Positions 3,603-22,051 of a stretch of 22,211 bases of DNA are shown piece by piece (the stretch's first letter is position 1; each line of letters opens with the position of its first letter). Location of the stretch: the IMG/VR virus record IMGVR_UViG_3300020347_000038, positions 1 to 22,211 of that record; one strand, 5' to 3'. A program made the position numbers and the translations under genes. Under the pieces are notes generated by a model that was given only the letters and a program-made list of their open reading frames with translations, searched no databases and had not been told where the DNA came from. The stretch comes from a virus.

Positions 3603-4277
3603 CTATTTCCAGTTATTTTGTACCCATTTCTTCGTTGATTCGTGTGGATTTGGTAGGCCATGAAACACACATACTTTAGCATTCGGTTTCTGGTCAAATG
3701 TCCACTGCGATTTATCTATTCTGGGGGCCTCTCGGGAGAACCACTTGTATGAAAATGTCCACTCGTCTGGCATTACCTTACAATGTGAAGTTGATTTAAT
3801 AAAATGACTCATAACTTGTTGATCACCATGGTTCCTCATCATATTAGTTTCATCTTTCTTAAATGATGTCCATATATGTTCAGCTGTAATATTGTTAAAT
3901 TTCATAATACTTGAATTGTACACACTACTGGCAGGATTAAAATCATTTATAACACCAAAGGTGTCCTCTTTACCAAACAAAGCCATATCATCTATGTTAT
4001 CTAGTATCACTACGTCTAAATCAAAGTATAAACATGTACCTTTTAAGTCTGCCTCTGGACTGAATAGAGTTAGTTTGTTCCACCAGCCTTCATATTGGTC
4101 AAATGGTAAACCTTTTGTGATAATACCATCGGAAAAATTTAGCGAAGGGTGATCGGTGTAAACTATGAATCTAAATGGTATAGAAAGGTTTCTTTTTACC
4201 ATACTGTATAGTTTATTTACATAGTCAATACTATACTTGTTTCCCCAATATACACAAACTACATTAACCAGTTCCAT
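3603..4277 (-). CDS. GT-A type glycosyltransferase-like protein (224 aa)
   Basis: The N-terminus reads VNVVCVYWGNKYSIDYVNKL, a beta-strand/nucleotide-binding opening typical of GT-A enzymes. FIVYTDHP follows near residues 37-44, then LYFDLDVVILD with a DxD at Asp86 and Asp88 that would bind the metal and sugar nucleotide. A second region, NSSIMKFNN (about residues 121-129), matches the usual acceptor-side strand. VFHGLPNPHE near the C-terminus is a further family-like motif. No signal or membrane segment is seen, so it acts in the cytoplasm. It is the last gene of the surface-glycan cassette and its ATG overlaps the upstream small membrane gene by 19 bases. The sugar and acceptor are unknown. 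Confidence 0.8.
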   Translation of the reverse strand: MELVNVVCVYWGNKYSIDYVNKLYSMVKRNLSIPFRFIVYTDHPSLNFSDGIITKGLPFDQYEGWWNKLTLFSPEADLKGTCLYFDLDVVILDNIDDMALFGKEDTFGVINDFNPASSVYNSSIMKFNNITAEHIWTSFKKDETNMMRNHGDQQVMSHFIKSTSHCKVMPDEWTFSYKWFSREAPRIDKSQWTFDQKPNAKVCVFHGLPNPHESTKKWVQNNWK

Positions 4278-4504
4278 ATTGCTCTCACTGCTATAATTAA
4301 ATACATAAATTCCATTAATGCTCTAGGTATATCTTTATCTTTCCAACCCATATAAATCCAAATACTACAACTTGATATTGCAATTGACCAACCTAACCAT
4401 TGTGTATCAGGATTAGCATTGCTAAGTACCCATGCACCAACCATGGCTAATAGAAAACCTATCCATCGCCAACCATCAATCTTTTTGTAGTATCTTATTT
4501 TCAT
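4259..4504 (-). CDS. Small integral membrane protein (81 aa), three predicted helices
   Basis: Three hydrophobic stretches are visible: about residues 12-28 (GWRWIGFLLAMVGAWVL), 34-52 (TQWLGWSIAISSCSIWIYM), and 62-80 (ALMEFMYLIIAVRAIWNW). The W-x-G-W, GWKDKD and RAIWNW pattern recalls the C-terminal half of PnuC-like nicotinamide transporters and related half-size phage proteins, but the similarity is weak and the length is about a third of a full PnuC. It lies inside the glycan cassette, overlapping the SGNH hydrolase by 29 bases, so a role in moving a sugar or acyl donor across the membrane is also possible. Function unresolved. Confidence 0.7.
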   Translation of the reverse strand: MKIRYYKKIDGWRWIGFLLAMVGAWVLSNANPDTQWLGWSIAISSCSIWIYMGWKDKDIPRALMEFMYLIIAVRAIWNWLM

Positions 4505-5279
4505 GTAATCTTTTTAAAAACTCCTCTGCTAGTATTTCTTGTCCTATTTTATTAGGATGTACGTCTTTGTCTGATACTTTATGTTGTGCTTTTAAACAAT
4601 CAGATAGTACATAAGACTTTTCTCCCCAATATTTATCGTTTACAACGTCACATGGCCAACCTAAAAAATTTTTGTTTATTAATTCATTATAACCTGTGCT
4701 TTTAATTAGATCAAAAAGTTCTTTTTCAAAATCAACTGGATTTTTATCTTTTACATTAAAATGTATCCATGATCTCCATAATGAGAGCATTTGAAAGTGA
4801 CAATATGGTAATTTAAGTTGTTTACATAAATTTTGATATGCATATTGTAATCTTATTGACTTTAACACGTGATAATACATATCTCCTTTTGTATCAAAGT
4901 TTTCATTAGTCCATAAATCTTTCTTTTGATCTCTTTTAACAAATCTATATTCAGACCAATCACGTCTATGACCTTGTGACCAGGCAGCCACAACTAGACC
5001 AATCTCACCTTTTGGAAATTCATAAAGTCTATCCATTAAATGCATTTTTGACACAAACGTAGGTGTTTGGCCTTCAGGTGTTGTAACAAAATCAGATATA
5101 CCACTATAAATTCTTTCGTTACCTGAACCACTTAATCCTAAATTAATACACTCCATATTTAATTCATCAGCGACTATTTGAGGCCATTTAGGCCAATCAC
5201 AAATCATATCAGGATGTATATCACTATGCCAATGTGGATCGGTAAAACTACAACCACTAACTAATAATATCTTTTTCAT
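4476..5279 (-). CDS. SGNH/GDSL-like hydrolase (267 aa)
   Basis: Block I is visible at the N-terminus, LLVSGCSFTDPHW, with Ser11 as the likely nucleophile. The Gly/Asn oxyanion block is LGLSGSGNERI, with Gly51 and Asn54. The C-terminal block is KDVHPNKIGQEILAE with His241. The Asp partner is at 239 or 237, so the spacing departs from the usual D-x-x-H. SGNH enzymes remove or transfer O-acyl groups, often O-acetyl on polysaccharide. Set among five glycosyltransferases, the likely substrate is a glycan, but this is inferred from context. There is no signal peptide (MKKILLV here forms the first beta-strand). It overlaps the preceding gene by 4 bases. Confidence 0.8.
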   Translation of the reverse strand: MKKILLVSGCSFTDPHWHSDIHPDMICDWPKWPQIVADELNMECINLGLSGSGNERIYSGISDFVTTPEGQTPTFVSKMHLMDRLYEFPKGEIGLVVAAWSQGHRRDWSEYRFVKRDQKKDLWTNENFDTKGDMYYHVLKSIRLQYAYQNLCKQLKLPYCHFQMLSLWRSWIHFNVKDKNPVDFEKELFDLIKSTGYNELINKNFLGWPCDVVNDKYWGEKSYVLSDCLKAQHKVSDKDVHPNKIGQEILAEEFLKRLHENKILQKD

Positions 5280-5482
5280 AACAACTTTCCTAATAATTTA
5301 AGTCCGTATAATATACCTACAGCAGATAGAACACCTGTAATACCTTGATCTATACCTCCTAATATTGCACCAATAATCAATAAGGCATAAAATACATATG
5401 TCTTCCAGTTCCAAACATAATAAAACCAACCATGTTCTTCTTTTGTTGGACCAAAATCTAATTTAGGTTTCTTATTCTTCAT
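5276..5482 (-). CDS. Small membrane protein (68 aa), two predicted helices
   Basis: A polar, Lys-rich N-terminus (MKNKKPKLDFGPTKEEHGWF) is followed by two hydrophobic segments, about residues 28-43 (TYVFYALLIIGAILGG) and 48-67 (ITGVLSAVGILYGLKLLGKL). ATGA overlaps join it to both neighbours, a GT-B glycosyltransferase-like gene upstream and the SGNH hydrolase downstream, so it is certainly co-translated with the cassette. No family recognised. It could anchor one of the neighbouring enzymes at the membrane. Confidence 0.7.
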   Translation of the reverse strand: MKNKKPKLDFGPTKEEHGWFYYVWNWKTYVFYALLIIGAILGGIDQGITGVLSAVGILYGLKLLGKLL

Positions 5483-6309
5483 ATTACAAATACTTTCTTT
5501 GATTGTTTACTTATAATATTAAATGCTGTACCATCTTCTATCTCTTTCAATGTAAATTGATTATTTGCTAATAGTTTTAACCATTCGTTTACATTATCTA
5601 CAGTAGGTTTCAAAGGGTCATTTATAAACTCCATATATCTTGTTGATACTGGCCATGCAACGTTTCTTGTATCACATATTACAGGTACACCCTCTAGTAC
5701 TGCGTCAACAGCTGCTAAACTCATATTAGTAACCAAACAGTGAGCGCCATCTAGGTCGTCTTGTATTGGTTTTCCCCACCACTCATTATGTGGTCTAGGT
5801 TTATTTCTAATTCTTATATCTCTATTGGTATATTTTTTTATTTGAGCAACAATATTATCTGTCCAATCTCCTTGTGTCATACCATTATGTTTGTAAGTTA
5901 CTGTTTCAGAGGAAGGACAAACTAATATATGATCTCCTTCTCCTTGATTCCAATTATCAAAAATACTTTTAATTCCTTTTTTATCTAGTTGTTTTATTCT
6001 ATCGCCACCGCCTTTTTTAGAACCTGATAATGTATGTATTCCACCTTTTACAATTCTAAAATAGGTTTTATCGTAATCGTTTATTTTAGGCGAAGGATAT
6101 CTTGTAATCTGTTCAGTTAAATAACCAACATCTACATAATACCATTCTTGTTTGTTTTTTTCTAATTCTGTTATCTTTGCTACGTTATCTCCACCTAATC
6201 CCCAAAAAAAATGAGTATCTAAACTAGGAATAGGCCAACCTTTTTCAAAACTAGGCCAAATTTCATGTGATAGACAATCAACTTTTTGCATTCTATGTGT
6301 ATAAATCAT
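5479..6309 (-). CDS. GT-B type glycosyltransferase-like protein, capsule KpsS/Kdo-transferase-like (276 aa)
   Basis: The C-terminal half carries the signature of a GT-B nucleotide-sugar site: DIRIRNKPRPHNEWW (about residues 164-178), then DLDGAHCLVTNMSLAAVDAV and LEGVPVICDTRNVAWPVS (about 205-222). The long N-terminal domain has HTLSGSKKGGGDRIKQ. These motifs resemble the capsule polysaccharide/KpsS-like and Kdo-transferase group. The upstream gene (6306-7211) has the same ordered motifs, so the two are paralogues with different N-termini. No signal peptide. It most likely acts in the cytoplasm on a lipid-linked or LPS-like acceptor. The donor sugar cannot be read from the sequence. Confidence 0.7.
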   Translation of the reverse strand: MIYTHRMQKVDCLSHEIWPSFEKGWPIPSLDTHFFWGLGGDNVAKITELEKNKQEWYYVDVGYLTEQITRYPSPKINDYDKTYFRIVKGGIHTLSGSKKGGGDRIKQLDKKGIKSIFDNWNQGEGDHILVCPSSETVTYKHNGMTQGDWTDNIVAQIKKYTNRDIRIRNKPRPHNEWWGKPIQDDLDGAHCLVTNMSLAAVDAVLEGVPVICDTRNVAWPVSTRYMEFINDPLKPTVDNVNEWLKLLANNQFTLKEIEDGTAFNIISKQSKKVFVI

Positions 6310-7211
6310 AATAGTCTTTTATGTACCTCGCCTGTATTTATCTCACTCATTTTCCATTGTGTATATGCTGTATCGTATAACCAATGTGTTCTATCATATA
6401 GAGGCATTACTGTTTCTTCTAAAACATTTAGTTTATGAGAAGACACTGGCCAAGCATGTGATGTTTTTGATAATGTAATAGTAGGCACACCCTCACATAC
6501 TGTTTCTACCAAACTATTACTTGAATATGAAATGGCTACTCTAGCATGATCTAGGTCTTTATATAAATCTTTACTACTAGATTTATTAAATGTTTGACCA
6601 ACATTTTTACTAAAAAGAATTGTGTTTCTTACAGGTACTTTTAGTAATCCTCTTAAATATTTTAAAGGAAATCTAGGGTGTACTCTGACCATAATATCTT
6701 CAGCAGTATACTTTGATATTTCCATAATCGTATGTCTTATCCAATTTTCATAATCAGGTTCATATTTACATAAATCATTTAAACTAGTGTCTTTTGGATT
6801 TTGTAATAATAATAAAATGTAATCACCATTTGTTTTCCAAGGCTTTATTTCTATATTTTGTTCTTTTTGTATTTGTAACCATCTATCTGGAGGACAATTT
6901 CTATTATTAAAATAACCTTTATTGTAAGTATAACAATCTTTACCAACTCTATAATAATAATCTGGTTTTTGTATATCTAAATTTTGTCTAAATGTTGCTT
7001 GTTCTACAACCAGTATAGGTTTTGATTGAGCCGATATCCATTTGTATTTGTCGGCATTAACAGTTTTTATATTACCTTTAATGTTTGTTTGAATATATGC
7101 GTCTGCTTTGTGATTATCTCTATCTGACCATTCTATTAATTTAAAATCTTCATGTGTAGGGAAAACATAATGATTGTTTTCGTTAAAAGGTCCTTTGATA
7201 CCTATGATCAT
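6306..7211 (-). CDS. GT-B type glycosyltransferase-like protein, paralogue of the next gene (301 aa)
   Basis: The C-terminal domain shows DIMVRVHPRFPLKYL (about residues 172-186), DLDHARVAISYSSNSLVETV (219-238) and CEGVPTITLSKTSHAWPVSS (239-258). These line up one for one with the motifs of the downstream gene. The pattern basic/His-Pro, Asp-His-Ala, Ser-Ser, EGVP, WPVS fits GT-B enzymes of the capsule KpsS-like type. The N-terminus begins MIIGIKGPFNENNHYVFPTH, unlike the partner, so acceptor specificity may differ. ATGA overlaps link it on both sides. No membrane segment or signal peptide. Confidence 0.7.
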   Translation of the reverse strand: MIIGIKGPFNENNHYVFPTHEDFKLIEWSDRDNHKADAYIQTNIKGNIKTVNADKYKWISAQSKPILVVEQATFRQNLDIQKPDYYYRVGKDCYTYNKGYFNNRNCPPDRWLQIQKEQNIEIKPWKTNGDYILLLLQNPKDTSLNDLCKYEPDYENWIRHTIMEISKYTAEDIMVRVHPRFPLKYLRGLLKVPVRNTILFSKNVGQTFNKSSSKDLYKDLDHARVAISYSSNSLVETVCEGVPTITLSKTSHAWPVSSHKLNVLEETVMPLYDRTHWLYDTAYTQWKMSEINTGEVHKRLL

Positions 7212-7876
7212 AAGTTTACCTCTGTTGTTTCTTTATACAACTTGTGCCATTCGTCTGCATAATCTTGATCTTTAAACTCTTTGTACCAAGGACCACCAAG
7301 TGTCCAATGTACATTTTTGGCATACTTATCATAGTCATATTCACCTACCAACCAGTTCCACTCAAACGGAAGTTCACCTACCATGTGTTCTCTCTCTAAC
7401 CACTTAAATTGGTGTAGTTCTAAACCACTTGCTGTATTTACGTATTCAGGTGTTAGTTTTGTGCATTGTGAGTTATGAAATAACATTACACTAGACCAGT
7501 TCTTTTTAGGAAATGCTTGATTTTTTGCACCTCTAAATTTTATATCTTGTTTTGGTGTATAATTATGTTGACAACACATAACAGAATATTTGTATGTAGC
7601 ATAACCATATAACTCTGCAATGTCTGATCTTACCATCATGTCGCAATCCATAAAGATTGACCAGCCCTTATAGTTTGATAGATAAGGTACTAAAAATCTG
7701 CTAAATGCAAAGTCTGTTGATTGATTGGATTGTTTTTCTCTTGTAAATTGTGGTAAATTATTTAAACTTAATGGTGTTATACTTACAGGTACACTAGAAA
7801 ACTTTCTAATACTTTCAGCAAGCACATGATAGGCTGCTTTTTCTCCCTCATCAAACCCTATAAAGACTTGAATCAT
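7208..7876 (-). CDS. GT8-like glycosyltransferase (222 aa)
   Basis: MIQVFIGFDEGEKAAYHVLA is the typical first strand of GT8/GT-A enzymes. The metal-binding DxD is FMDCDMM with Asp77 and Asp79, preceded by SRFLVPYL, a strongly GT8-like helix. NWSSVMLFHNSQC (about residues 126-138) is the acceptor-loop strand, and VHWTLGGPW near residue 189-197 supplies the conserved late His (HxxGxxKPW-like). Length is short but sufficient for a catalytic domain. It transfers a hexose-type residue from a nucleotide sugar; which one is not known. 4-base overlaps tie it to both neighbouring genes. Confidence 0.8.
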   Translation of the reverse strand: MIQVFIGFDEGEKAAYHVLAESIRKFSSVPVSITPLSLNNLPQFTREKQSNQSTDFAFSRFLVPYLSNYKGWSIFMDCDMMVRSDIAELYGYATYKYSVMCCQHNYTPKQDIKFRGAKNQAFPKKNWSSVMLFHNSQCTKLTPEYVNTASGLELHQFKWLEREHMVGELPFEWNWLVGEYDYDKYAKNVHWTLGGPWYKEFKDQDYADEWHKLYKETTEVNL

Positions 7877-8544
7877 AATCTACTTTCTTTACTTTTACCT
7901 GTTTTCTTTCTAGCACCTTTTGTATGATCATATACTTTACCTAATATTGATCTTGATTGTACATGACCAACTCTTCCATCTCCTATATCATAGTTTTCTA
8001 CACCATAATTTTCTTCTAGTCTAGTTCTAACTATATCAAATATAAATGAATCATGTTGTTCATCTTCTTTAAATAATAAGTTATCATCATACATCTTTCT
8101 CATATCTATGGCAAATTGTTTTATAAAATCATGTTTCATATTGAAATACATAAAACCACATTCACTATAAGTTGGTCTTTGTAGATAAGTTATCATACAA
8201 TCTTCTCTATATAAATGTTTTTTTACCCATGCCTCATCAATCTTTTTATAAAATACACTATCTGCGTCTATGAATATAAGACCATCACAATCTCTTGTTG
8301 TTAAGATTGCCTGTGTATATGCATATACTTTATAACTAAATCTTACTGCGTCTTTTTGAAAGTTTAATGGTATGTCTACCTTGTTTCTATCTACAAATTT
8401 TTTAAGAGTTGGTATCTCATCGTACATACCCTCATCTTCATTATATATTTCTAATTCAAATGGCCAATTATAAGTAGATTGAAATCTATGAGCATATTCT
8501 TTAAATAGTTTATTGTTCCAGGTACTAACTACTTTTATTTTCAT
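7873..8544 (-). CDS. GT-A type glycosyltransferase-like protein (223 aa)
   Basis: The start is placed at ATG 8544, which has AGGTGGG just upstream. The open frame extends 18 codons further, but that leader is a shadow of the overlapping nuclease gene. The product begins MKIKVVSTWNNKLFKEYAHR. It carries GLIFIDADSVFYKK with a DxD at Asp93 and Asp95, an upstream KDAVRFSYKVYAYTQA helix, and a later EDEQHDSFIFDIV. This combination is that of metal-dependent GT-A transferases. It is the first gene of the glycan cassette and overlaps the RuvC-like gene by 20 bases, so cassette expression appears coupled to the replication block. Confidence 0.75.
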   Translation of the reverse strand: MKIKVVSTWNNKLFKEYAHRFQSTYNWPFELEIYNEDEGMYDEIPTLKKFVDRNKVDIPLNFQKDAVRFSYKVYAYTQAILTTRDCDGLIFIDADSVFYKKIDEAWVKKHLYREDCMITYLQRPTYSECGFMYFNMKHDFIKQFAIDMRKMYDDNLLFKEDEQHDSFIFDIVRTRLEENYGVENYDIGDGRVGHVQSRSILGKVYDHTKGARKKTGKSKESRL

Positions 8545-9088
8545 GTCCCACCTTTTGTATATAATAACTATCAACAATATCAGATAAAGGATTACCACAT
8601 TTTTCAGTATCTAATATTTGTTTCAAATCAATTTTAGTTTCTTTTAGAAAGGCCTCGTACATCATGTCTTTGTCTGCGTTTCCTTTTCCTGTTGCGCCTT
8701 TTTTAACAACACTCGGTACAACTGTATTGTAATTAAGACCGTTAGATAGTATCCTGTATTTGAGGATGCCACAATTCTCAGCAATTTGAAAAAGACCCTG
8801 GCCTTTAGAACCATACGAATAGCCTTCAATGTAAATTTCTTTAGGAGTATTAATGGTAGACAGTATATTAAATACAAAATCCGAAATATAAGTAAATCTT
8901 TCAATAGGGTCTGTCCATTCTTTGTGTTCATAACCAATTATATTATCACTTTGTTTTCCTATCCACTTTTTTTTAGTAGTTAGGTAATAAAAATTTAGTT
9001 GGCCATCATTTATACAGATAGCCGGACTTGTTAAACTATAATCAATTCCAACTTTCGTGTTCGGCTTCGTCTGGTACTTCACTGTCAT
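8525..9088 (-). CDS. RuvC-like Holliday-junction resolvase/endonuclease (187 aa)
   Basis: KVGIDYSLTSPAICI at residues 12-26 is the first RNase H-fold strand with the metal Asp16. EIYIEGYSYGSKGQGLFQIA at 84-103 carries the second acidic residue, Glu88. The C-terminal LSDIVDSYYI (168-177) supplies Asp170 or Asp173. KGNADKDMMYEAF lies between. This order is that of RuvC-type nucleases, and 187 residues is close to bacterial RuvC. In T4 the equivalent step uses endonuclease VII. Here a RuvC-like enzyme may resolve branched DNA before packaging. The start at 9088 lies inside the zinc-ribbon gene (47-base overlap). Confidence 0.8.
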   Translation of the reverse strand: MTVKYQTKPNTKVGIDYSLTSPAICINDGQLNFYYLTTKKKWIGKQSDNIIGYEHKEWTDPIERFTYISDFVFNILSTINTPKEIYIEGYSYGSKGQGLFQIAENCGILKYRILSNGLNYNTVVPSVVKKGATGKGNADKDMMYEAFLKETKIDLKQILDTEKCGNPLSDIVDSYYIQKVGHENKSS

Positions 9089-14245: not shown

Positions 14246-15880
14246 CTAGATTGTGTAAATTGATACCTTATTGGATTTGCCCTTAACTTGAACCATATCC
14301 AATTTCTTCCAATCGTACTTATTTCTTATCATGCTGTAAGTATCGTAACCTACTATTAAAGTTGCGTCATAATTTTTGCTTATGCCTTCTAATCTACTTG
14401 CTAGATTTACGGCGTCACCAAGAACAGAATAATCAAATCTTTGTTTAGAACCCATGTTACCTACAACAGCAGGACCAGAGTTTATTCCTATACCTATATT
14501 TATATGATTGCCTTCCCCAAAATGTTCATTATCATTTAACTCTTTTAAACATTTGATCATTTCTATTGCTGAATCAACTGCAAGTGATCTATGATTATGT
14601 TGATTTAAAGGAGCATTCCAAAATGCCATAATACAATCACCCATATACTTATCAATTGTTCCATTATTCTTCATTATTATATCTGTCATAGGTGTTAGAA
14701 ACTTATTAATAACTTTTGTAAGACCTTGTGGATTACTTTGATACTTTTCTGAAATAGGAGTAAAACCTCTTATATCGCAAAATAAAAAAGTCATGTCTCT
14801 TGTATCGCCACCTAGTTTTAATAATTCTGGATTGTTTTGTAATTTCTTAACCATTGCTGGTGCTAAATAATGTTCAAATTGTTTTTTAATTTGTAGTTTT
14901 AATCTATTCTCTCTAGCAAAGTTATTATATATTAAGTGTGTCCATATTATACTTACAATTATTCCTATAGATGAATAGTCTGATAGTATTAATTTGTTTT
15001 GCCACAAATATGTTGAGGCCACACCTACAGTACCATAAAATATAAACAACATACTAGCAGACCAAAATAAGCCAACTCTAGGTATAATCAATAAGAAAGA
15101 AAGTAAAGAAATTATTAGTACTGCCCACTCTGCTTTAGGTAACCAATCAGGTCTACTAATAAATTTACCAGATAATAATGTTTCTGTAGATAGAGCCATT
15201 ATCTCGTGTGTATTCTTTAAACCATTAGGTGTTAATACAAAAGTAGAACCTGTAAATGTGGCACCTATGAATACTATTTTACCTTTCATAGATGACCAAT
15301 CTTTATCTGCATAGTTCACTCTAGGTATACTATGTCTAAAATCAATCCATATTTGATCTTGCTTAGGTAATGGAAATTTAATTATCTGTAAAATCTTTCC
15401 GGGCACGGAATTATCCAGAGGTATTTTTCGTATAACAGAGTCAACACTTACTTCCACTTCCACGTTAGCGATAGCTAGAGATTTCCTTTCTATACTCTTT
15501 AAGTTCTTTGCTGTGTCTGTTTCAGTTAGAATAACTGGATACTTTGAGATCATCTTCAAAAACATTTCATCACCACCTAGTCTGTCTTTGTGTACAAATA
15601 CTACGTTTAAAAATACTAGAGCTGCACCATTTTTATATGCATTTATAATAGCACGACCTAGTTTGTCTCTTTTCCATGGCCACTGACCTTCTTTTTTTAA
15701 TGCCTCGTCTGATATGTCTAACATCACCAAACTTTTAGATATATAATTATTACCTAGTTTTTGATATAGATCAAAAGTTTTTAATTGGAGGGTCTCTAGT
15801 GGTGCTGGATTATATAATTTTAATCCTAATAATATTACCACACTTACTATTACCGCCCATACGGAAGTAAATTTAGTCAT
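14246..15880 (-). CDS. CHASE2-domain class III nucleotidyl (adenylyl) cyclase
   Basis: This is a membrane receptor cyclase. A first TM helix (about residues 5-22) is followed by an extracytoplasmic CHASE2 sensor (about 25-245) with the family motif VMLDISDEALKKEGQWPWKR and the later KIVFIGAT. Three TM helices (about 252-320) and a linker (FEHYLAPAMVKKL) lead to the catalytic domain (about 355-544). Catalytic residues are all seen: metal Asp369 in FCDIRGFT, Asp415 in DKYMGDCIMAFW, adenine-side Lys411, Ser485 at the second base-contact site (Ser/Thr fits bacterial adenylyl cyclases), and transition-state Asn492 and Arg496 in VNLASRLEG. It should make cAMP from ATP. It lies 8 bases after the FecR gene with no strong ribosome-binding site. 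Confidence 0.93.
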   Translation of the reverse strand: MTKFTSVWAVIVSVVILLGLKLYNPAPLETLQLKTFDLYQKLGNNYISKSLVMLDISDEALKKEGQWPWKRDKLGRAIINAYKNGAALVFLNVVFVHKDRLGGDEMFLKMISKYPVILTETDTAKNLKSIERKSLAIANVEVEVSVDSVIRKIPLDNSVPGKILQIIKFPLPKQDQIWIDFRHSIPRVNYADKDWSSMKGKIVFIGATFTGSTFVLTPNGLKNTHEIMALSTETLLSGKFISRPDWLPKAEWAVLIISLLSFLLIIPRVGLFWSASMLFIFYGTVGVASTYLWQNKLILSDYSSIGIIVSIIWTHLIYNNFARENRLKLQIKKQFEHYLAPAMVKKLQNNPELLKLGGDTRDMTFLFCDIRGFTPISEKYQSNPQGLTKVINKFLTPMTDIIMKNNGTIDKYMGDCIMAFWNAPLNQHNHRSLAVDSAIEMIKCLKELNDNEHFGEGNHINIGIGINSGPAVVGNMGSKQRFDYSVLGDAVNLASRLEGISKNYDATLIVGYDTYSMIRNKYDWKKLDMVQVKGKSNKVSIYTI

Positions 15881-15888
15881 CGGTATAT

Positions 15889-18126
15889 TTAGTCTGTTTG
15901 TATGATAGTGATTTTAGCGCCGTTAGAACCGGCTATAACTGATTGTGTTTCTTGTTCTTGTATAACCATAACATCAAAATTTTGTATAGCGTCATTACCA
16001 CTATTCACACCACTACCACCTGTGTGTATGTGAAAAGTATGTCCTTCGTGTGTTCTTGTAAATGAACGCCAATTATTATCACCTGTCTCTACATTAACGT
16101 CTGCTGTATTGTTTAGTGTAGAATATCTACCTGTTCTAGTGACAGAATCAGATACACCATTTGTCGTTGTGGTAATTGTTTGTGTTATCTCTCCTGTTTC
16201 GTAGTTAATTTTTTCACCACTTGCTTTTACTTTAACATTTGCCTCGCTGTTATCTACCCATGTTGTACCACAAGTTTGATTAGCAACGTCCCAATAATAA
16301 CCAAAGTATATACAATCTGCCTCAAATGTAATACCTGCTAGCCATTCTGTTTCCCATTGATCTTCGGTAAGTAAATCATCTTCAAAAGCATATTCTTCTT
16401 CTAGTGATACTTCTTCGTAAGTAGATTCCCAGTTATCGTAATAGTCTGAATAGTACCATTCATCAAAATTTTTCCACCATATATCCCAATCGTCCCATGT
16501 CCAATCTTTAATATATTTGTCTTTTAGTTCTGGTATAGTCCAAGGTTTAGGTGCCTCTTTCATATCCATATCATACCAAGATAGGTGTACTTCTTCAAAT
16601 AGTTTTTTACTTTCAGAATTCCATTTATCGTATTTTGTATTTAAATCCCAGTCACCTTGTGCCCACTTATTATTATTCTCAATGTAAGCTGCGTCACACC
16701 AACTAGCTTCTTTACACCAATCTTCTTCACCTGTAATTAAGAAAGGACCATCTTCTTCTTCATAATAATTATAATTATCCCAATCTATATCTTCGTATTC
16801 GTCATCTTCTTTTAGAGAATTGTTGTCATCAAATATATCATCTGTCACATCTAGGTCGTCATAGTTATATGATTCTAAACCAAAACTTTCCATAGTCTCT
16901 GCAACCTTTTTATCATACTCTTCCCAATCAACCTCGTCCCAATTTATCTCATCCCAATTAACATTATCCCAATTACAATCGCCCTCACAACCTATTGCTT
17001 CCATATATGCTTGGTCCATTTCAGCATACATTTTCTTACTATCTTCATAATCCATTTTAGTTTCACCTGAAGCATCCCAAACACTTACCTCATTATTATC
17101 ATCAACCCAACCATATTCCTCATCATAAGCAGCGTCATCCCATTGATCGTAATAAGTTGTATCTATCTCTGTATTTACTGTATCATCTGTAATAACGTCC
17201 TCTGCTTTTTGTTCTAAAGTTTCCACTGGAGCTTTTTCTGTTTTAATATCTTCTACAATTTTAACAGTTTCATTAGGTGCTGTTTCAACAATCGTAAGTT
17301 CCTCTGTCATTAATTCTTGTTCTAAATTGCCAGCAACTTCTTCGGTTACTTCAATCTCTTGGTTTTCATCTTGTATCTCCATGTTGATATCAGTTTTAGT
17401 TTCTTGTTTATCAAAGACATCTAACTTTTCTATTTCATCTTTTCTATTACTTTGTTCTTCTATCTTTTCTTCAAATTTTTCTTCGGTAGTATCTAAATCA
17501 AATAAATCTTTTATCTGTGTTTGATTTAAAGGTGATGGTGGTGTAGGTGCTAGACTATCTGAAAGTACAGTTACCGAGCTATAAGCATTTGTAATTGTAG
17601 TAGCACCAGCTTCGTTAGCAACTGTAACCTGTCCTACTGCACCTCTACTATCTGGTAATAAAGTAATTGTAGTATGACCTGTTGATGTAACTGTACCTGA
17701 AAACGCCGTTCCTTGTACTGTAATCGTAGCAGACGCCGTGTTTATTTCAACATTTCCACCTAGATTAGATATTTGTCCTGACTCGTATGTAAATGTACCT
17801 ACGTTTACTGTTGTTGACATTGCAACTATTATTGGTACTTTGCTAGTATCAAAAGCAAATTCATCAATAATTAATTCTGTTCCTGGACCCATTGTAAATT
17901 TAGTATCATCAACATAATGTAGTATCATACCACCATCTTCTCCTGTTTGAAGAAAATCATTTATGGTTATGATATAACCTTTTTCAACCTTTTCTGTTTT
18001 ACCATTTCTCTCGTTGAAAGTATTACCCATTTGACCGATAACTTCACCTGCTTTATTTTCTATTACAGCAAAGGCGTTTGTGGTTATCAGTATCAGTAAT
18101 GATACTATGAGAAATATTTTTTTCAT
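15889..18126 (-). CDS. Secreted FecR-domain protein with long Asp/Glu/Trp-rich region (745 aa)
   Basis: A Sec signal peptide (MKKIFLIVSLLILITTNAFA) precedes a FecR-type domain at about residues 45-155: FLQTGEDGGMILHYVDDTKF, then TMGPGTELIIDEFAF. FecR domains here are periplasmic or surface beta modules, not necessarily iron sensors. Residues 200-310 are Glu/Thr-rich and low-complexity. Residues about 320-600 are extremely rich in Asp, Glu, Trp and Tyr, with tandem pentapeptides at 385-403 and Cys380/384, 471/477 and 605/619, possibly paired. The last 110 residues are Thr/Asn/Gly-rich and end in VIAGSNGAKITIIQTD, reminiscent of a curlin-like strand. It is one base from the curlin gene and 8 from the cyclase. 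FecR-CHASE2 cyclase pairs are, as I recall, frequent in bacteria, suggesting a sensor partner or secreted adhesin. Confidence 0.85.
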   Translation of the reverse strand: MKKIFLIVSLLILITTNAFAVIENKAGEVIGQMGNTFNERNGKTEKVEKGYIITINDFLQTGEDGGMILHYVDDTKFTMGPGTELIIDEFAFDTSKVPIIVAMSTTVNVGTFTYESGQISNLGGNVEINTASATITVQGTAFSGTVTSTGHTTITLLPDSRGAVGQVTVANEAGATTITNAYSSVTVLSDSLAPTPPSPLNQTQIKDLFDLDTTEEKFEEKIEEQSNRKDEIEKLDVFDKQETKTDINMEIQDENQEIEVTEEVAGNLEQELMTEELTIVETAPNETVKIVEDIKTEKAPVETLEQKAEDVITDDTVNTEIDTTYYDQWDDAAYDEEYGWVDDNNEVSVWDASGETKMDYEDSKKMYAEMDQAYMEAIGCEGDCNWDNVNWDEINWDEVDWEEYDKKVAETMESFGLESYNYDDLDVTDDIFDDNNSLKEDDEYEDIDWDNYNYYEEEDGPFLITGEEDWCKEASWCDAAYIENNNKWAQGDWDLNTKYDKWNSESKKLFEEVHLSWYDMDMKEAPKPWTIPELKDKYIKDWTWDDWDIWWKNFDEWYYSDYYDNWESTYEEVSLEEEYAFEDDLLTEDQWETEWLAGITFEADCIYFGYYWDVANQTCGTTWVDNSEANVKVKASGEKINYETGEITQTITTTTNGVSDSVTRTGRYSTLNNTADVNVETGDNNWRSFTRTHEGHTFHIHTGGSGVNSGNDAIQNFDVMVIQEQETQSVIAGSNGAKITIIQTD
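16915..16974 (-). repeat. 15-bp coding tandem repeat (W-D/E pentapeptides)
   Basis: Four consecutive 15-base units encode NWDNV, NWDEI, NWDEV and DWEEY (residues 385-404 of the FecR-domain protein). Copies differ mainly at third positions, so this looks like an older expansion under protein-level selection. Confidence 0.75.
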
Positions 18127-18127
18127 T

Positions 18128-19231
18128 TTATTGACAGTTTGTTAGGTTAACTGTCGTGTCGGAAGATTGTGTGTTTCTATTAAAAGAATAACTACAGTTA
18201 CCAGAATTAGTTTGAGTAAAGTTTAAAGTGTAATCGTAAATACTATCACCAGATACATTTATTGTACCTGTATTTGATCCGTTCTCTTGCCAAGCATATA
18301 TTGTAGAGTCACTAGTTGTTTGGTATAAATGTAAACTATTGTTACCACCTGCTTGATATAAACCAAAAGTATTATTACTACCATTTACTCTTAAATATGC
18401 TTTTTCATTATCACCTAATTGTACCATTCTAACATAACCAGTTGCGTTAGGGTGTACATCTAAAATATTGCTTTGACCAGAACCCATTACCTCTACTAAC
18501 ATATAGTTATTGTCGCCGTGTGTGGCACCATGTACTGTATTGCTACTTCCTATAATCCAAAAATCTATTGTGACTAAATTAGAATCACCTACCATACCAT
18601 GATCTGGCGAATTATAATGACCTACAGCAGCGTTGGCTGTTGTATTCTTACCTGTACCACCATTAACCATATCATATTCTATATCATTTGAATCACCATA
18701 TAGATAAACATATAAGTGATGATTGTCAGCATTACCATTATGATTTAGCCATACATCATTTGAGTCACCTCTTATATCTAAATCAACATTAAAATTTTGT
18801 ACGCCATTTGTTGATGAGTCAGTATCGTTTATTGCTAAAATATTTGAGTTACCTATAATATCAATATCTAAATACCAACCACTATCATCTATTTCATCAA
18901 TGTCTGTATTTAAAACATTTGAATTACCATTAACTTGATAATCTAATGTACAATTTGTACATTTAAAAGTAGACCAAGCAGCAGTTGTATTTGAATCACC
19001 TATTTGTTTTATGATTACAGTATTGCCTGTTCCGTGAATATCAAAGTAGTCTTCACTACCAGAGGTCATAGAAGTACCTACTTTGTTATTTGAACCTTGT
19101 TGTTTTATGAATACTGTTTCACCTGTACCACTGCCAGATGTATCGTTACCAGATATGTATATTGAATTACTTGCCCAACAACTAATCGTTGTTACCAGAA
19201 GAATCACCAGTGTCATTATCATTTTTCTCAT
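18128..19231 (-). CDS. Curlin-like secreted repeat protein (367 aa)
   Basis: A signal peptide (MRKMIMTLVILLVTTISCWA) is followed by about fifteen degenerate units of roughly 20 residues, each with a G-x-(S/N)-N turn and alternating hydrophobic strands: GSNNKVG, GTGNTVIIKQIGDSNTT, GNSNVL, GNSNIL, GDSNDVWL, GDSNDIEY, GDSNLVTIDF, GSSNTV, GQSNIL, GSNNTFGLYQAGGNN. The I-x-Q-x-G-x-x-N form matches curlin repeats of CsgA/CsgB, which stack as amyloid. E. coli CsgA has 5 repeats in 151 residues, so this is much longer. Start 19231 has AGGAG seven bases upstream and lies inside the end of csgG (50-base overlap), so translation is coupled. It is the probable substrate of the adjacent CsgG pore, possibly forming fibres on infected cells or particles. 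Polymerisation is inference. Confidence 0.82.
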   Translation of the reverse strand: MRKMIMTLVILLVTTISCWASNSIYISGNDTSGSGTGETVFIKQQGSNNKVGTSMTSGSEDYFDIHGTGNTVIIKQIGDSNTTAAWSTFKCTNCTLDYQVNGNSNVLNTDIDEIDDSGWYLDIDIIGNSNILAINDTDSSTNGVQNFNVDLDIRGDSNDVWLNHNGNADNHHLYVYLYGDSNDIEYDMVNGGTGKNTTANAAVGHYNSPDHGMVGDSNLVTIDFWIIGSSNTVHGATHGDNNYMLVEVMGSGQSNILDVHPNATGYVRMVQLGDNEKAYLRVNGSNNTFGLYQAGGNNSLHLYQTTSDSTIYAWQENGSNTGTINVSGDSIYDYTLNFTQTNSGNCSYSFNRNTQSSDTTVNLTNCQ

Positions 19232-20099
19232 CTGTATTCTCCTTTCGTTCTTTTATTTTCATGTCGTTATGTACGTCATTGCCTACATCAACATAGTCTT
19301 TAATTTGAGGTACTTCTATTTCTTTATCTACACTAAACTTCCATAATTCTTTTTGAGCACCTAAATGAATTAAATCTACAACACCTTTTTCTATTGCTTT
19401 TCTTACTGCAAAGGTCACTGGTTCGTTTTTAGCATAACCAGCTTCTATCTCTACTAACATTGTGTCAGCGTCAAAATATTTAAATACGTCTGATCCTGTT
19501 GACGTTGATACAATAGTCTTTTCTACCGTTGTCGTAATAACAACTTCACCAGTTTGTACATTTACTAATCTTAATATAATAGTAACAATATCTTCCCTAT
19601 ATTGTTTATTTGCTTGTATTCCTAAAACTCTAGCACCTATACCACCAGATTTTATATCACTATCATAACCTACAATACCACCTGTGATATATGCACCTGC
19701 AAATAGTAAAGCAGGTAGTGGTTCTGCGTTCTCACCACTTGCTAATTGTCTAGTTGTTCTAATTAATTTTCTTTCTTGCAATAGACTTGCTAAACTTGAT
19801 CTCTCTACAACTCTAAACCATTTACCATCGCCTGCGTCTTGTAATGCCTTGATTAACAACTGATAAGAGCCTTGTGTGACAGCACTTGACATTGAAGCAA
19901 AGTTACCACCTGGTTTCTTTTGACCAGTCATATCTAAAAAATCATAAACAGCAATTGTAACTGGATCGCCTTCAGGTGCCTTGACACTTGATAAATCTTT
20001 GTATGCAACTGTTTGAGTTTTTACATCAAAACTTGCCTTGTTTGTAGCACAACCTACTAAAATAAAAGAAAGTAATATAATTGATAAAGTTTTAAACAT
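19182..20099 (-). CDS. csgG: Curli secretion channel CsgG
   Basis: CsgG is an outer-membrane lipoprotein that assembles as a nonameric pore and lets curlin subunits out of the periplasm. Visible features: lipobox LVGC with Cys17; YKDLSSVKAPEGDPVTIAVY (about 33-52), matching the YKDLTHLPAP segment of E. coli CsgG; DMTGQKKPGGNFASMSSAVT, covering the constriction-loop region; RVVERSSLASLLQERKLIR; and GYDSDIKSGGIGARVLGIQA, nearly identical in pattern to E. coli GYESNVKSGGVGARYFGIGA. The E. coli constriction Tyr is not obviously kept, so the gate may differ. Length 305 versus 277; the extra is a hydrophilic, Asn/Asp/Lys-rich tail overlapping the curlin gene start. TAATG coupling links it to csgF. 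Confidence 0.94.
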   Translation of the reverse strand: MFKTLSIILLSFILVGCATNKASFDVKTQTVAYKDLSSVKAPEGDPVTIAVYDFLDMTGQKKPGGNFASMSSAVTQGSYQLLIKALQDAGDGKWFRVVERSSLASLLQERKLIRTTRQLASGENAEPLPALLFAGAYITGGIVGYDSDIKSGGIGARVLGIQANKQYREDIVTIILRLVNVQTGEVVITTTVEKTIVSTSTGSDVFKYFDADTMLVEIEAGYAKNEPVTFAVRKAIEKGVVDLIHLGAQKELWKFSVDKEIEVPQIKDYVDVGNDVHNDMKIKERKENTDEKNDNDTGDSSGNND

Positions 20100-20560
20100 T
20101 ATTGATTATCCTGATATGGTAAAGTATAACTTGTTGTTGTGCCATCTGGCTCTTGTACAGTCACGGTTACACCTGCGTTGTCACCTGAAGTGACGGTTGC
20201 CCAAGTTATAATATTTCCTGCTGTATCTGTATATGTTCCTGAATCTTGTTGTAAACCATCTGATCCAAATACATTATCTGTAATTTGTTTTGCAAGAGCA
20301 GTATAGAATCTTGCTTCTAAATTTGCTTGAAATTTAGCAACAGCAGTTGAGTTTAACTCATCTTGTAATGCCTTTGCGTCTGCTTTTTTCTGAGCTTCTA
20401 TTGCGTCTTTTCTAGTCTTCTCTATGTTCTCTATCGTTAAATAGTGTGATGATTTTCCGTTACCAGAAAATGATGGACTGCCAAATTTAAATATCATTTC
20501 TGACGCAGCCACACTTGAACATAAACCAAACGTTGCTAAAATTACTAATAATTTTTTCAT
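20099..20560 (-). CDS. csgF: Curli assembly factor CsgF
   Basis: CsgF plugs into the CsgG pore and couples secretion to nucleation at the cell surface. After a signal peptide (MKKLLVILATFGLCSSVAAS), the mature N-terminus reads EMIFKFGSPSFSGNGKSSHY. This aligns with the E. coli CsgF start (TMTFQFRNPNFGGNP), the part that binds inside CsgG. A charged helical insert (about residues 45-80) is followed by FYTALAKQITDNVFG and a beta-rich C-terminus (NIITWATVTSGDNAGVTVTV, DGTTTSYTLPYQ). Length is 153 versus 138 in E. coli. It is the first gene of the late operon, with a late-promoter box at 20583-20590 and AGAGGGA before the ATG. Confidence 0.9.
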   Translation of the reverse strand: MKKLLVILATFGLCSSVAASEMIFKFGSPSFSGNGKSSHYLTIENIEKTRKDAIEAQKKADAKALQDELNSTAVAKFQANLEARFYTALAKQITDNVFGSDGLQQDSGTYTDTAGNIITWATVTSGDNAGVTVTVQEPDGTTTSYTLPYQDNQ

Positions 20561-21296: not shown

Positions 21297-21749
21297 TTAT
21301 TCGTAAACTTTTTTTCTTTCATATGCTTGTTCATGTCTGCCTGTAATCTCTAGTATCTCCCACTCGCCATTTTCTAATACTCTTACTTTAGCATTTACTT
21401 TATCACAAGTCATATTATATATGCCTTCTTTATCTTCACTATCTTTGTATTTTCTTTCTGCTTCTCTTTTATTTTTTAAGCAGTCCATTAAGTTCTCACT
21501 TGCAACATGGTCAACTAATACTCTTGTACCGTCTGCTGAAATTTCAAAGATACATACTGCGAATACAACACCATCCTCTGGTGTAGATGAAGACTCTTTG
21601 TGTTCTTCTTTCATATAAGTTTTGTGTGTATGTTTCTTTTCAATAGGACAAACTTGATGGCCATCATCACCACAACCAGTACAATCTGCTTGTGCGTTTA
21701 GACCAAATGTAATTAATACTAGAAATAAAAATGCAATTAAATAATTCAT
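21297..21749 (-). CDS. Exported Cys-rich protein (150 aa), paralogue of the upstream gene
   Basis: The signal peptide is MNYLIAFLFLVLITFGLNAQ with cleavage likely near residue 20-22. The mature N-terminus is Cys/His-rich (DCTGCGDDGHQVCPIEKKHT), and a metal site is possible. The C-terminal domain (about residues 60-140) has VVFAVCIFEISADGTRVLVD, then LMDCLKNKREAERKYK and a later MTCDKVNAKV. The CLK-x-KR-x-A-x-R and C-x-x-V pattern is shared with the upstream 100-residue gene, so the two are tandem paralogues and the Cys pairs may form a disulphide. Exported to the periplasm by inference. No known family named. Confidence 0.7.
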   Translation of the reverse strand: MNYLIAFLFLVLITFGLNAQADCTGCGDDGHQVCPIEKKHTHKTYMKEEHKESSSTPEDGVVFAVCIFEISADGTRVLVDHVASENLMDCLKNKREAERKYKDSEDKEGIYNMTCDKVNAKVRVLENGEWEILEITGRHEQAYERKKVYE

Positions 21750-22051
21750 TAGTCTAAAATTTTAAGTAATCTAATACCGTATTTTGCTTGTTTGTCAACT
21801 TGTAATAATCCTTTTACAGACTTACAAGCGAATATAACTCTTTCGCCACCTACTTCTCTACTTGCTAGTCTTTTAGATTTTAAGCATTGACTTATATTTT
21901 CTTTATATACCCATTCAATTAATTTACCATTAAGTGTTAGAGTTAATGCAACTACACCACTTTTTTCATACTTTTCTCCACCAGTATAAAGCTTGGCTGC
22001 TAAAACTGGTAAACATAATAACGTAAAAAATATTATTAATAATTTTCTCAT
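21749..22051 (-). CDS. Exported small protein (100 aa), paralogue of the downstream gene
   Basis: The signal peptide is MRKLLIIFFTLLCLPVLAAK, cleaved near residue 19. The mature protein holds a beta segment (GVVALTLTLNGKLIEWVYKE), ISQCLKSKRLASREVG and VIFACKSVKGLLQV. The two Cys are about 20 residues apart and match the Cys of the downstream paralogue, so a conserved disulphide is likely. The ATG overlaps the upstream partial gene by 4 bases, and the stop overlaps the next ATG by one. It is probably a small periplasmic protein. No function recognised. Confidence 0.7.
   Translation of the reverse strand: MRKLLIIFFTLLCLPVLAAKLYTGGEKYEKSGVVALTLTLNGKLIEWVYKENISQCLKSKRLASREVGGERVIFACKSVKGLLQVDKQAKYGIRLLKILD

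Follow-up and report, generated by a model that had tools for sequence, protein, structure and literature searches.

Curli (type VIII secretion) clusters that include FecR and adenylate cyclase genes have already been published for pelagiphages (PMC9599517; also PMC7029224, PMC9004378). The available text of PMC9599517 describes phage curli clusters as widespread in the ocean, reports that CsgE is missing in pelagiphages, and proposes that FecR acts as an iron-dependent regulator; the account of FecR in these portions is that of a regulator, with no mention of its tail or of a long form. FecR proteins also accompany CHASE2 proteins in bacteria. According to the accessible parts of the respective papers, a CHASE2 histidine kinase is accompanied by a FecR protein in a Burkholderia biofilm operon (PMC5192318), CHASE2 cyclases of Campylobacterota cluster with a FecR-domain outer-membrane protein (PMC9239204), and the Sinorhizobium FecR-domain protein SMc02177 is discussed together with the targets of a cAMP-dependent regulator (PMC5498481).

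The locus examined here shares the order csgF-csgG-curlin-FecR-(curlin)-cyclase with the pelagiphage cluster, as far as the published description is available. It differs in its FecR protein, which is long and carries an acidic domain, whereas the cultured phages HTVC008M and Melnitz encode a short FecR protein of 368-369 residues without this domain, followed by a second curlin gene.

The phage curli operon and its surroundings

The window, meaning the whole 22.2-kb stretch of DNA that was analyzed, corresponds to positions 1 to 22,211 of the IMG/VR virus record IMGVR_UViG_3300020347_000038. Its primase is 50% identical to that of HTVC008M; identity rises to 65.5% with the primase of Pelagibacter phage Mosig, which is T4-like and infects SAR11. 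Mosig differs in that other genes precede its primase, and it is absent from the seven records matching CsgG. Judged from its sequence, the source of the window is a T4-like Pelagibacter-type marine phage related to the SAR11 phages.

The minus strand of the window carries, in order, csgF, csgG, a curlin-repeat gene, the long FecR gene, a CHASE2-cyclase gene, a coiled-coil gene and the primase gene, as well as ribonucleotide reductase genes, which were assigned by similarity to the Mosig order. The genes central to this analysis are the following.

20099..20560, minus strand: CsgF (Pfam CsgF, E 1.5e-11)
19182..20099, minus strand: CsgG outer-membrane channel (Pfam CsgG, E 7.1e-52)
18128..19231, minus strand: curlin-repeat protein, 367 aa (Pfam Curlin_rpt, E 8.6e-4; NCBIfam CsgA, E 4.1e-5; both below cut-off)
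15889..18126, minus strand: long-form phage FecR protein, 745 aa, ATG start; whole gene, with relatives in 63 viral loci
14246..15880, minus strand: CHASE2-domain adenylate/guanylate cyclase (Pfam CHASE2, E 2.4e-25; Guanylate_cyc, E 5.8e-23)

The joint presence of csgG, csgF and a curlin gene, the Curlin_rpt match of the last falling one bit below the cut-off, identifies a type VIII secretion (curli) operon. The curlin and FecR genes are a single base apart, and the cyclase gene follows the FecR gene after eight bases. The pairing of a FecR-domain gene with an adjoining CHASE2-cyclase gene recurs in the relatives as well as in bacterial pairs, and the content and order of the operon are conserved across the relatives' loci. 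Some departures were observed: in L012, L018, L045 and many other loci, the cyclase gene lies on the opposite strand ahead of csgF instead of downstream, a relocation seen in about half of the long-form loci that still leaves the cyclase gene close. In L064 and L212, which represent the same contig, the long FecR gene is broken into two open pieces of 509 and 225 aa.

Elsewhere on the minus strand of the window, two small genes whose products look secreted (150 and 100 aa; 21297-22051) lie ahead of csgF and have no Pfam or NCBIfam match. The region 3603-8598 has the look of a glycosyltransferase cluster, based on gene order and one weak Glyco_transf_8 match at 7208-7876 that falls below the cut-off, and the gene at 310-786 weakly resembles a gene for a 17-kDa outer-membrane surface antigen (E 0.0026, which is below the cut-off). 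Outside the window, the 1499-base record OR851715.1, labeled "Salmonella phage," contains a csgG relative and is probably host DNA.

Domains of the long FecR protein

All 35 distinct full-length sequences, comprising the window's own and 34 others that are 41-62% identical to it, have a common domain layout; 22 of them remain as representatives below 90% identity, and the broken gene of L064 was excluded from the alignment. Along the 745 residues of the window protein, the layout is as follows.

18067..18126, minus strand: signal peptide, residues 1-20; sole hydrophobic stretch, N-terminal in 35/35 sequences
17533..18060, minus strand: FecR domain, residues 23-198; PF04773 matches in relatives, fold matches to PupR (Z 14.7) and 5ix9 (Z 8.0)
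17167..17532, minus strand: acidic variable linker, residues 199-320, predicted to be disordered; pLDDT <50, dN/dS 0.49
16297..17166, minus strand: acidic/aromatic, Cys-containing domain, residues 321-610, mostly helical in the model; delimited by composition, conservation, dN/dS and model
16915..16974, minus strand: five-residue tandem repeat N-W-D-x-V/I, residues 385-404, within the acidic domain; W391, W396 and W401 invariant
15982..16296, minus strand: C-terminal beta region, residues 611-715, from the predicted model; dN/dS 0.19 over residues 611-745
15892..15981, minus strand: curlin-like tail, residues 716-745; from motif, spacing and profile-profile tests

The N-terminal domain is assigned to FecR because relatives match the Pfam family (PF04773) and because the predicted fold matches that of PupR. 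Thirty of the 47 family members match at E<=1, with a best value of 3.4e-8, whereas the window protein by itself reaches E 0.14, which is below the cut-off. The match to the FecR-type domain of PupR covers residues 54-199 (Z 14.7, 127 residues, 2.2 A). A further fold match links residues 23-121 to 5ix9, annotated as "Cell surface anchoring domain" (Z 8.0, 74 of 76 residues, 2.3 A), which is probably the N-terminal retention domain of the Marinomonas ice-binding adhesin. The phage domain may have the fold of a LapA-type retention domain; identity to 5ix9 is 20%, and the common fold gives no function. For the short phage FecR proteins, the top NCBIfam matches are Leptospira surface proteins, far below the cut-off. 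The AlphaFold2 model of the whole protein has a mean pLDDT of 64, with values mostly of 80-92 in the FecR domain and below 50 in the linker.

In FecR anti-sigma regulators, a single membrane segment comes after a cytoplasmic anti-sigma part. This arrangement is absent from all 35 phage sequences, in which the only hydrophobic segment is N-terminal, none is internal, and nothing lies ahead of the signal peptide, so the contrast with such regulators drawn in the sequence-only reading holds throughout the family. Despite the likeness of its domain to that of FecR/PupR regulators, the phage protein differs in carrying this domain N-terminally, directly after the signal peptide, without a cytoplasmic part or an internal membrane segment. 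These features suggest that the protein is probably exported, in line with the secreted character first supposed for it.

The acidic, aromatic and Cys-containing region described in the same reading is real: residues 321-610 include 24 Trp, 26 Tyr and 5 Cys, with 31% Asp+Glu and a net charge of -73. Across the 22 representatives, the segment aligned to residues 320-630 contains 26-33% D+E, 17-21% F+W+Y, 4-7% K+R and either 6 or 8 Cys, and C380, C384, C471, C477, C605, C619, W350, W391, W396 and W401, among others, are invariant. Beyond residue 40, the number of Cys is always even (8 in 28 of the 35 sequences, 6 in the other 7), and the additional two are either both there or both lacking in the 14 aligned examples; an even count is in keeping with disulphide bonds outside the cytoplasm. 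Median dN/dS over 313 pairs is 0.21 for the FecR domain, 0.49 for the linker, 0.18 for the acidic domain and 0.19 for residues 611-745. Given the conserved composition, the invariant Trp and Cys and the low dN/dS, the acidic region is a conserved domain under purifying selection and not drifted low-complexity sequence, a behavior confined to the linker at residues 199-320. Its association with FecR is nearly complete: 139 of the 141 complete ORFs that carry the acidic domain encode a FecR domain in the same frame, and the remaining two represent the same half of one broken gene, which is found in two overlapping loci.

No family was matched by the acidic domain in Pfam, NCBIfam, profile or fold searches, and the known intracellular or unrelated family that might have accounted for it did not appear among them. 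The sequence profile of residues 318-745 reached a best E of 0.52 against the PDB, and fold searches with the same residues gave best values of E 0.12 (Foldseek, PDB), E 0.036 (BFVD) and Z 3.0 (VIA); in these searches, the beta part fills the match list and the helical part is barely probed, and the lack of a match is no proof of a new fold. The predicted model of this C-terminal part has middling confidence (pLDDT 73.5) and shows mostly helices in the acidic part and beta strands at the C-terminus. The acidic-domain profile matched viral loci only, with no match in the non-viral loci examined. Among 222 matches to two short patterns in genome contigs, no bacterial relative was confirmed, in a scan that detects pattern-matching sequences only and does not imply that the domain is absent from bacteria.

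A curlin-like C-terminal tail

Phage FecR proteins, both short and long, terminate in a psi-x-psi-x-Q strand. After omission of partial ORFs and clustering of the tails at 80%, the motif was found in 31 of 34 FecR representatives compared with 19 of 879 other ORFs, and 1000 shuffles of the FecR tails yielded a mean of 2.1 and a maximum of 8 matches. The three tails without it belong to a broken gene (L212), a short fragment (L173) and a variant ending (L260). A companion count with the loose motif gave 32/35 FecR tails, 20/876 other ORFs and 23/38 curlins, with no matches among 63 CsgG, 26 CsgF and 52 cyclase sequences; set sizes vary slightly between counts (876 or 879 other ORFs, 34 or 35 FecR representatives) owing to differing cut-offs.

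The curlin kernel is described as N-psi-x-psi-x-Q in the portion of PMC10192328 that was available. In this strict form, it occurs at the C-terminus of 16 of the 34 FecR proteins, in 1 of the 879 other ORFs and in none of 44 phage curlins; the window protein has the strand spacing, with Ala replacing the kernel Asn. Two strands 20-24 residues apart, the last of them C-terminal, are present in 23/34 FecR tails versus 3/879 other ORFs, 0/62 CsgG, 0/24 CsgF and 0/49 cyclases (shuffle mean 0.045). This two-strand ending is found in only 11 of the 44 phage curlins and in none of 16 complete bacterial FecR proteins. Escherichia coli CsgB has it and E. coli CsgA does not.

Profile-profile comparisons with hhalign point in the same direction at a more modest level. 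Short and long FecR tails align with E 4.9e-5; short-FecR tails align with phage curlin tails ending in the motif at E 0.0013 over 41 columns, and with other curlin tails at E 0.00036 over 20 columns. For long-FecR tails against curlin tails, the value is 0.07. Four control tails gave E 0.12-0.89, and reversed curlin tails gave 0.019-0.036.

The interpretation of the tail as a statistically clear curlin repeat was rejected, as HMM tests failed in both directions. An HMM of the tail retrieved curlins at E 0.064 at best, which is not significant, and an HMM of bacterial curlin repeats placed the tail at the top in just 5 of the 34 FecR proteins, performing poorly in the long forms. Pfam curlin matches at E<=1 were likewise absent from the families listed for 47 members. 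The tail is thus placed near curlins by its kernel and its spacing of about 22 residues (16/34 and 23/34, respectively) and not by repeat matches. Because support comes from motif, spacing and profile-profile tests only, we limit the claim to resemblance: the tail appears curlin-like and is not a proven curlin repeat. The similarity to a curlin strand pointed out beforehand is therefore genuine in its motif, modest between profiles and not significant in the two HMM tests. The closest parallel is CsgB, the E. coli curli nucleator, which shares the C-terminal strand motif and the spacing of 20-24 residues, although the phage FecR protein resembles it in the tail only, the rest not being curlin repeats.

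Short and long forms, bacterial neighbors and the proposed role

The two forms of phage FecR differ in the gene that follows. Next to short-form FecR (104 loci), we recognized a curlin gene in 68, the cyclase in 16, a FecR piece in 1 and no identifiable gene in 19, whereas next to long-form FecR (71 loci) curlin genes numbered 0 and no gene was recognized in 7; both sets of counts include overlapping contigs. A gap of 236-1208 bases is present in 18 of 20 short-form loci with the cyclase next, and 8 of the 10 gap ORFs printed look curlin-like by eye, while 2 do not. Gaps before the cyclase in long-form loci measure <=132 bases in 25 of 28. Over their final 52 residues the two forms can be aligned (E 7e-4, probability 27%), and no part of the short-form C-terminus aligns with the acidic domain; on these grounds, the acidic domain appears to have been inserted ahead of a common tail in phages without the second curlin gene. 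Since it occurs in place of the second curlin found in most short-form phages, it probably provides the structural or binding function that this curlin has elsewhere. One locus, L078, comes from a Saprospirales MAG (contig PAPS01000029.1) and has the arrangement csgF-csgG-curlin-FecR-curlin-CHASE2 cyclase, and its other strand carries an SdhB-like gene; the FecR protein has 367 aa and ends in NSITIRQQGG, and the contig is either a bacterial copy or a phage contig binned into the MAG.

In 385 alphaproteobacterial genomes, a FecR relative (E<=1e-12) was found in 104, a CHASE2 domain (E<=1e-8) in 183, and a CsgG relative (E<=1e-10) in 14, six of them strong. Of the best 150 FecR places, 30 have one of the best 150 CHASE2 places within 6 kb, where about 0.7 would be expected by chance. 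In many species, bacterial FecR genes, some encoding large adhesin-like proteins, adjoin CHASE2-cyclase genes. Ten longer bacterial FecR proteins, chosen for length or repeats and not at random, all pass the Pfam FecR cut-off, and nine of them also contain RTX, cadherin-like, Calx-beta or nidogen-like domains, in one case only below the Pfam cut-off. The phage protein is similar to these alphaproteobacterial proteins, large adhesins included, in having a FecR domain near the N-terminus and an adjoining CHASE2-cyclase gene; the bacterial proteins differ in the domains that follow FecR and, for the 16 complete ones, in lacking the two-strand tail. Even the loose single-strand motif occurs in only 1 of 20 bacterial loci (L278-L297), which were selected as FecR-CHASE2 pairs and inform on the tail and not on adjacency. 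After three phage-like loci (L072, L077 and L078) and a fragment (L081) were set aside from the 15 bacterial csgG loci found, none of the other 11 had FecR beside csgG, and none of the six strong CsgG places shares a contig with a FecR place among the matches listed.

We propose that the long FecR protein is an exported accessory subunit of the phage curli system that may couple the fiber to the cyclase, a reading to which we assign a probability of about 0.5. It is suggested by the signal peptide, the kind of FecR domain, the acidic domain with its even number of Cys, the curlin-like tail and the operon. The protein would be exported by Sec, its tail would dock on the curlin fiber or at the CsgG-CsgF exit site, much as CsgB does, and the FecR domain would be held at the envelope as an anchor or contact. 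From there, it could report fiber export or assembly to the CHASE2 cyclase, which would make cAMP in the infected cell, while the acidic domain would act as a structural or binding part in place of a second curlin. For CsgB itself, deletion of repeat 4 or 5 is reported to abolish outer-membrane association (PMC4551309, available in part). The earlier suggestion that the tail joins the fiber stands as far as the strand likeness, which makes joining or docking a fair inference; the docking itself we infer from sequence. Counting against the exported-subunit reading are the HMM results for the tail, the E value of 0.07 for long-form tails and the small share of curlins with a two-strand ending. 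CsgG carries unfolded substrates, and a large folded, Cys-containing domain may fit poorly through this channel, which also weighs against it.

The closest rival is a periplasmic gate or adaptor for CsgG, whose tail would bind unfolded curlins while the acidic domain sits at the CsgG mouth, replacing the missing CsgE, and the FecR domain contacts the CHASE2 cyclase. It draws on the reported lack of CsgE in pelagiphages (PMC9599517), on the report that CsgE binds curlin repeats and caps CsgG (PMC6957492), both papers being partly available, and on the signal peptide, the absence of any other membrane segment and the strong negative charge of the protein. We nevertheless consider it rather unlikely: no family search (Pfam, NCBIfam) named CsgE, and short-form phages do without the acidic domain, though the cluster is, in the accessible text, reported without CsgE there too. 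The sequence-only reading had favored a secreted calcium-, metal- or glycan-binding polymer, with an acidic/aromatic region that binds ions or sugars extracellularly and a tail that joins the fiber. Composition, conserved Cys, probable export and the curlin-like tail are compatible with this idea, yet no binding family or fold was matched and the model consists mostly of helices and does not resemble a repeat polymer; we regard it as improbable.

The least probable role, in our judgment very improbable, is the one proposed in the 2022 pelagiphage paper (PMC9599517, as far as available), namely a FecR-type signal transducer controlling expression by iron. The FecR/PupR fold of the domain speaks for it. 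Against it, the protein has no cytoplasmic anti-sigma part, since the signal peptide stands at its very start and the remainder contains no membrane segment; neither a sigma factor nor a TonB receptor was found among the 20 window proteins scanned with Pfam; and many of the bacterial FecR domains closest to it belong to adhesin-like proteins.

Returning to the exported subunit, a more speculative and doubtful extension is that phages welded together two bacterial modules, the curli fiber system and the FecR-CHASE2 cyclase sensor, which were not seen together in the bacteria sampled. The curlin-like tail would be the weld, the fiber of the infected cell would be wired to cAMP signaling, and in one lineage the acidic domain would have replaced the second curlin. 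No description of a curlin-like tail or of an acidic long form of phage FecR was recognized in the literature searched, which lies outside subscription papers, preprints and supplements and was partly available. Within this scope, the following are new: the acidic domain and the long form that carries it, the tail resembling curlin, the exchange of this domain for a second curlin gene, and the connection with bacterial FecR proteins neighboring CHASE2 cyclases.

Competing ideas on the purpose of phage curli clusters include sibling capture, lysis timing and import. If FecR docks on the fiber and is linked to a cAMP cyclase, the cluster would be a device that combines fiber and sensor, and the iron interpretation would fall. 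It would also hint at the signals perceived by CHASE2 domains in bacteria, in which FecR proteins, including some adhesins, adjoin CHASE2 cyclases.
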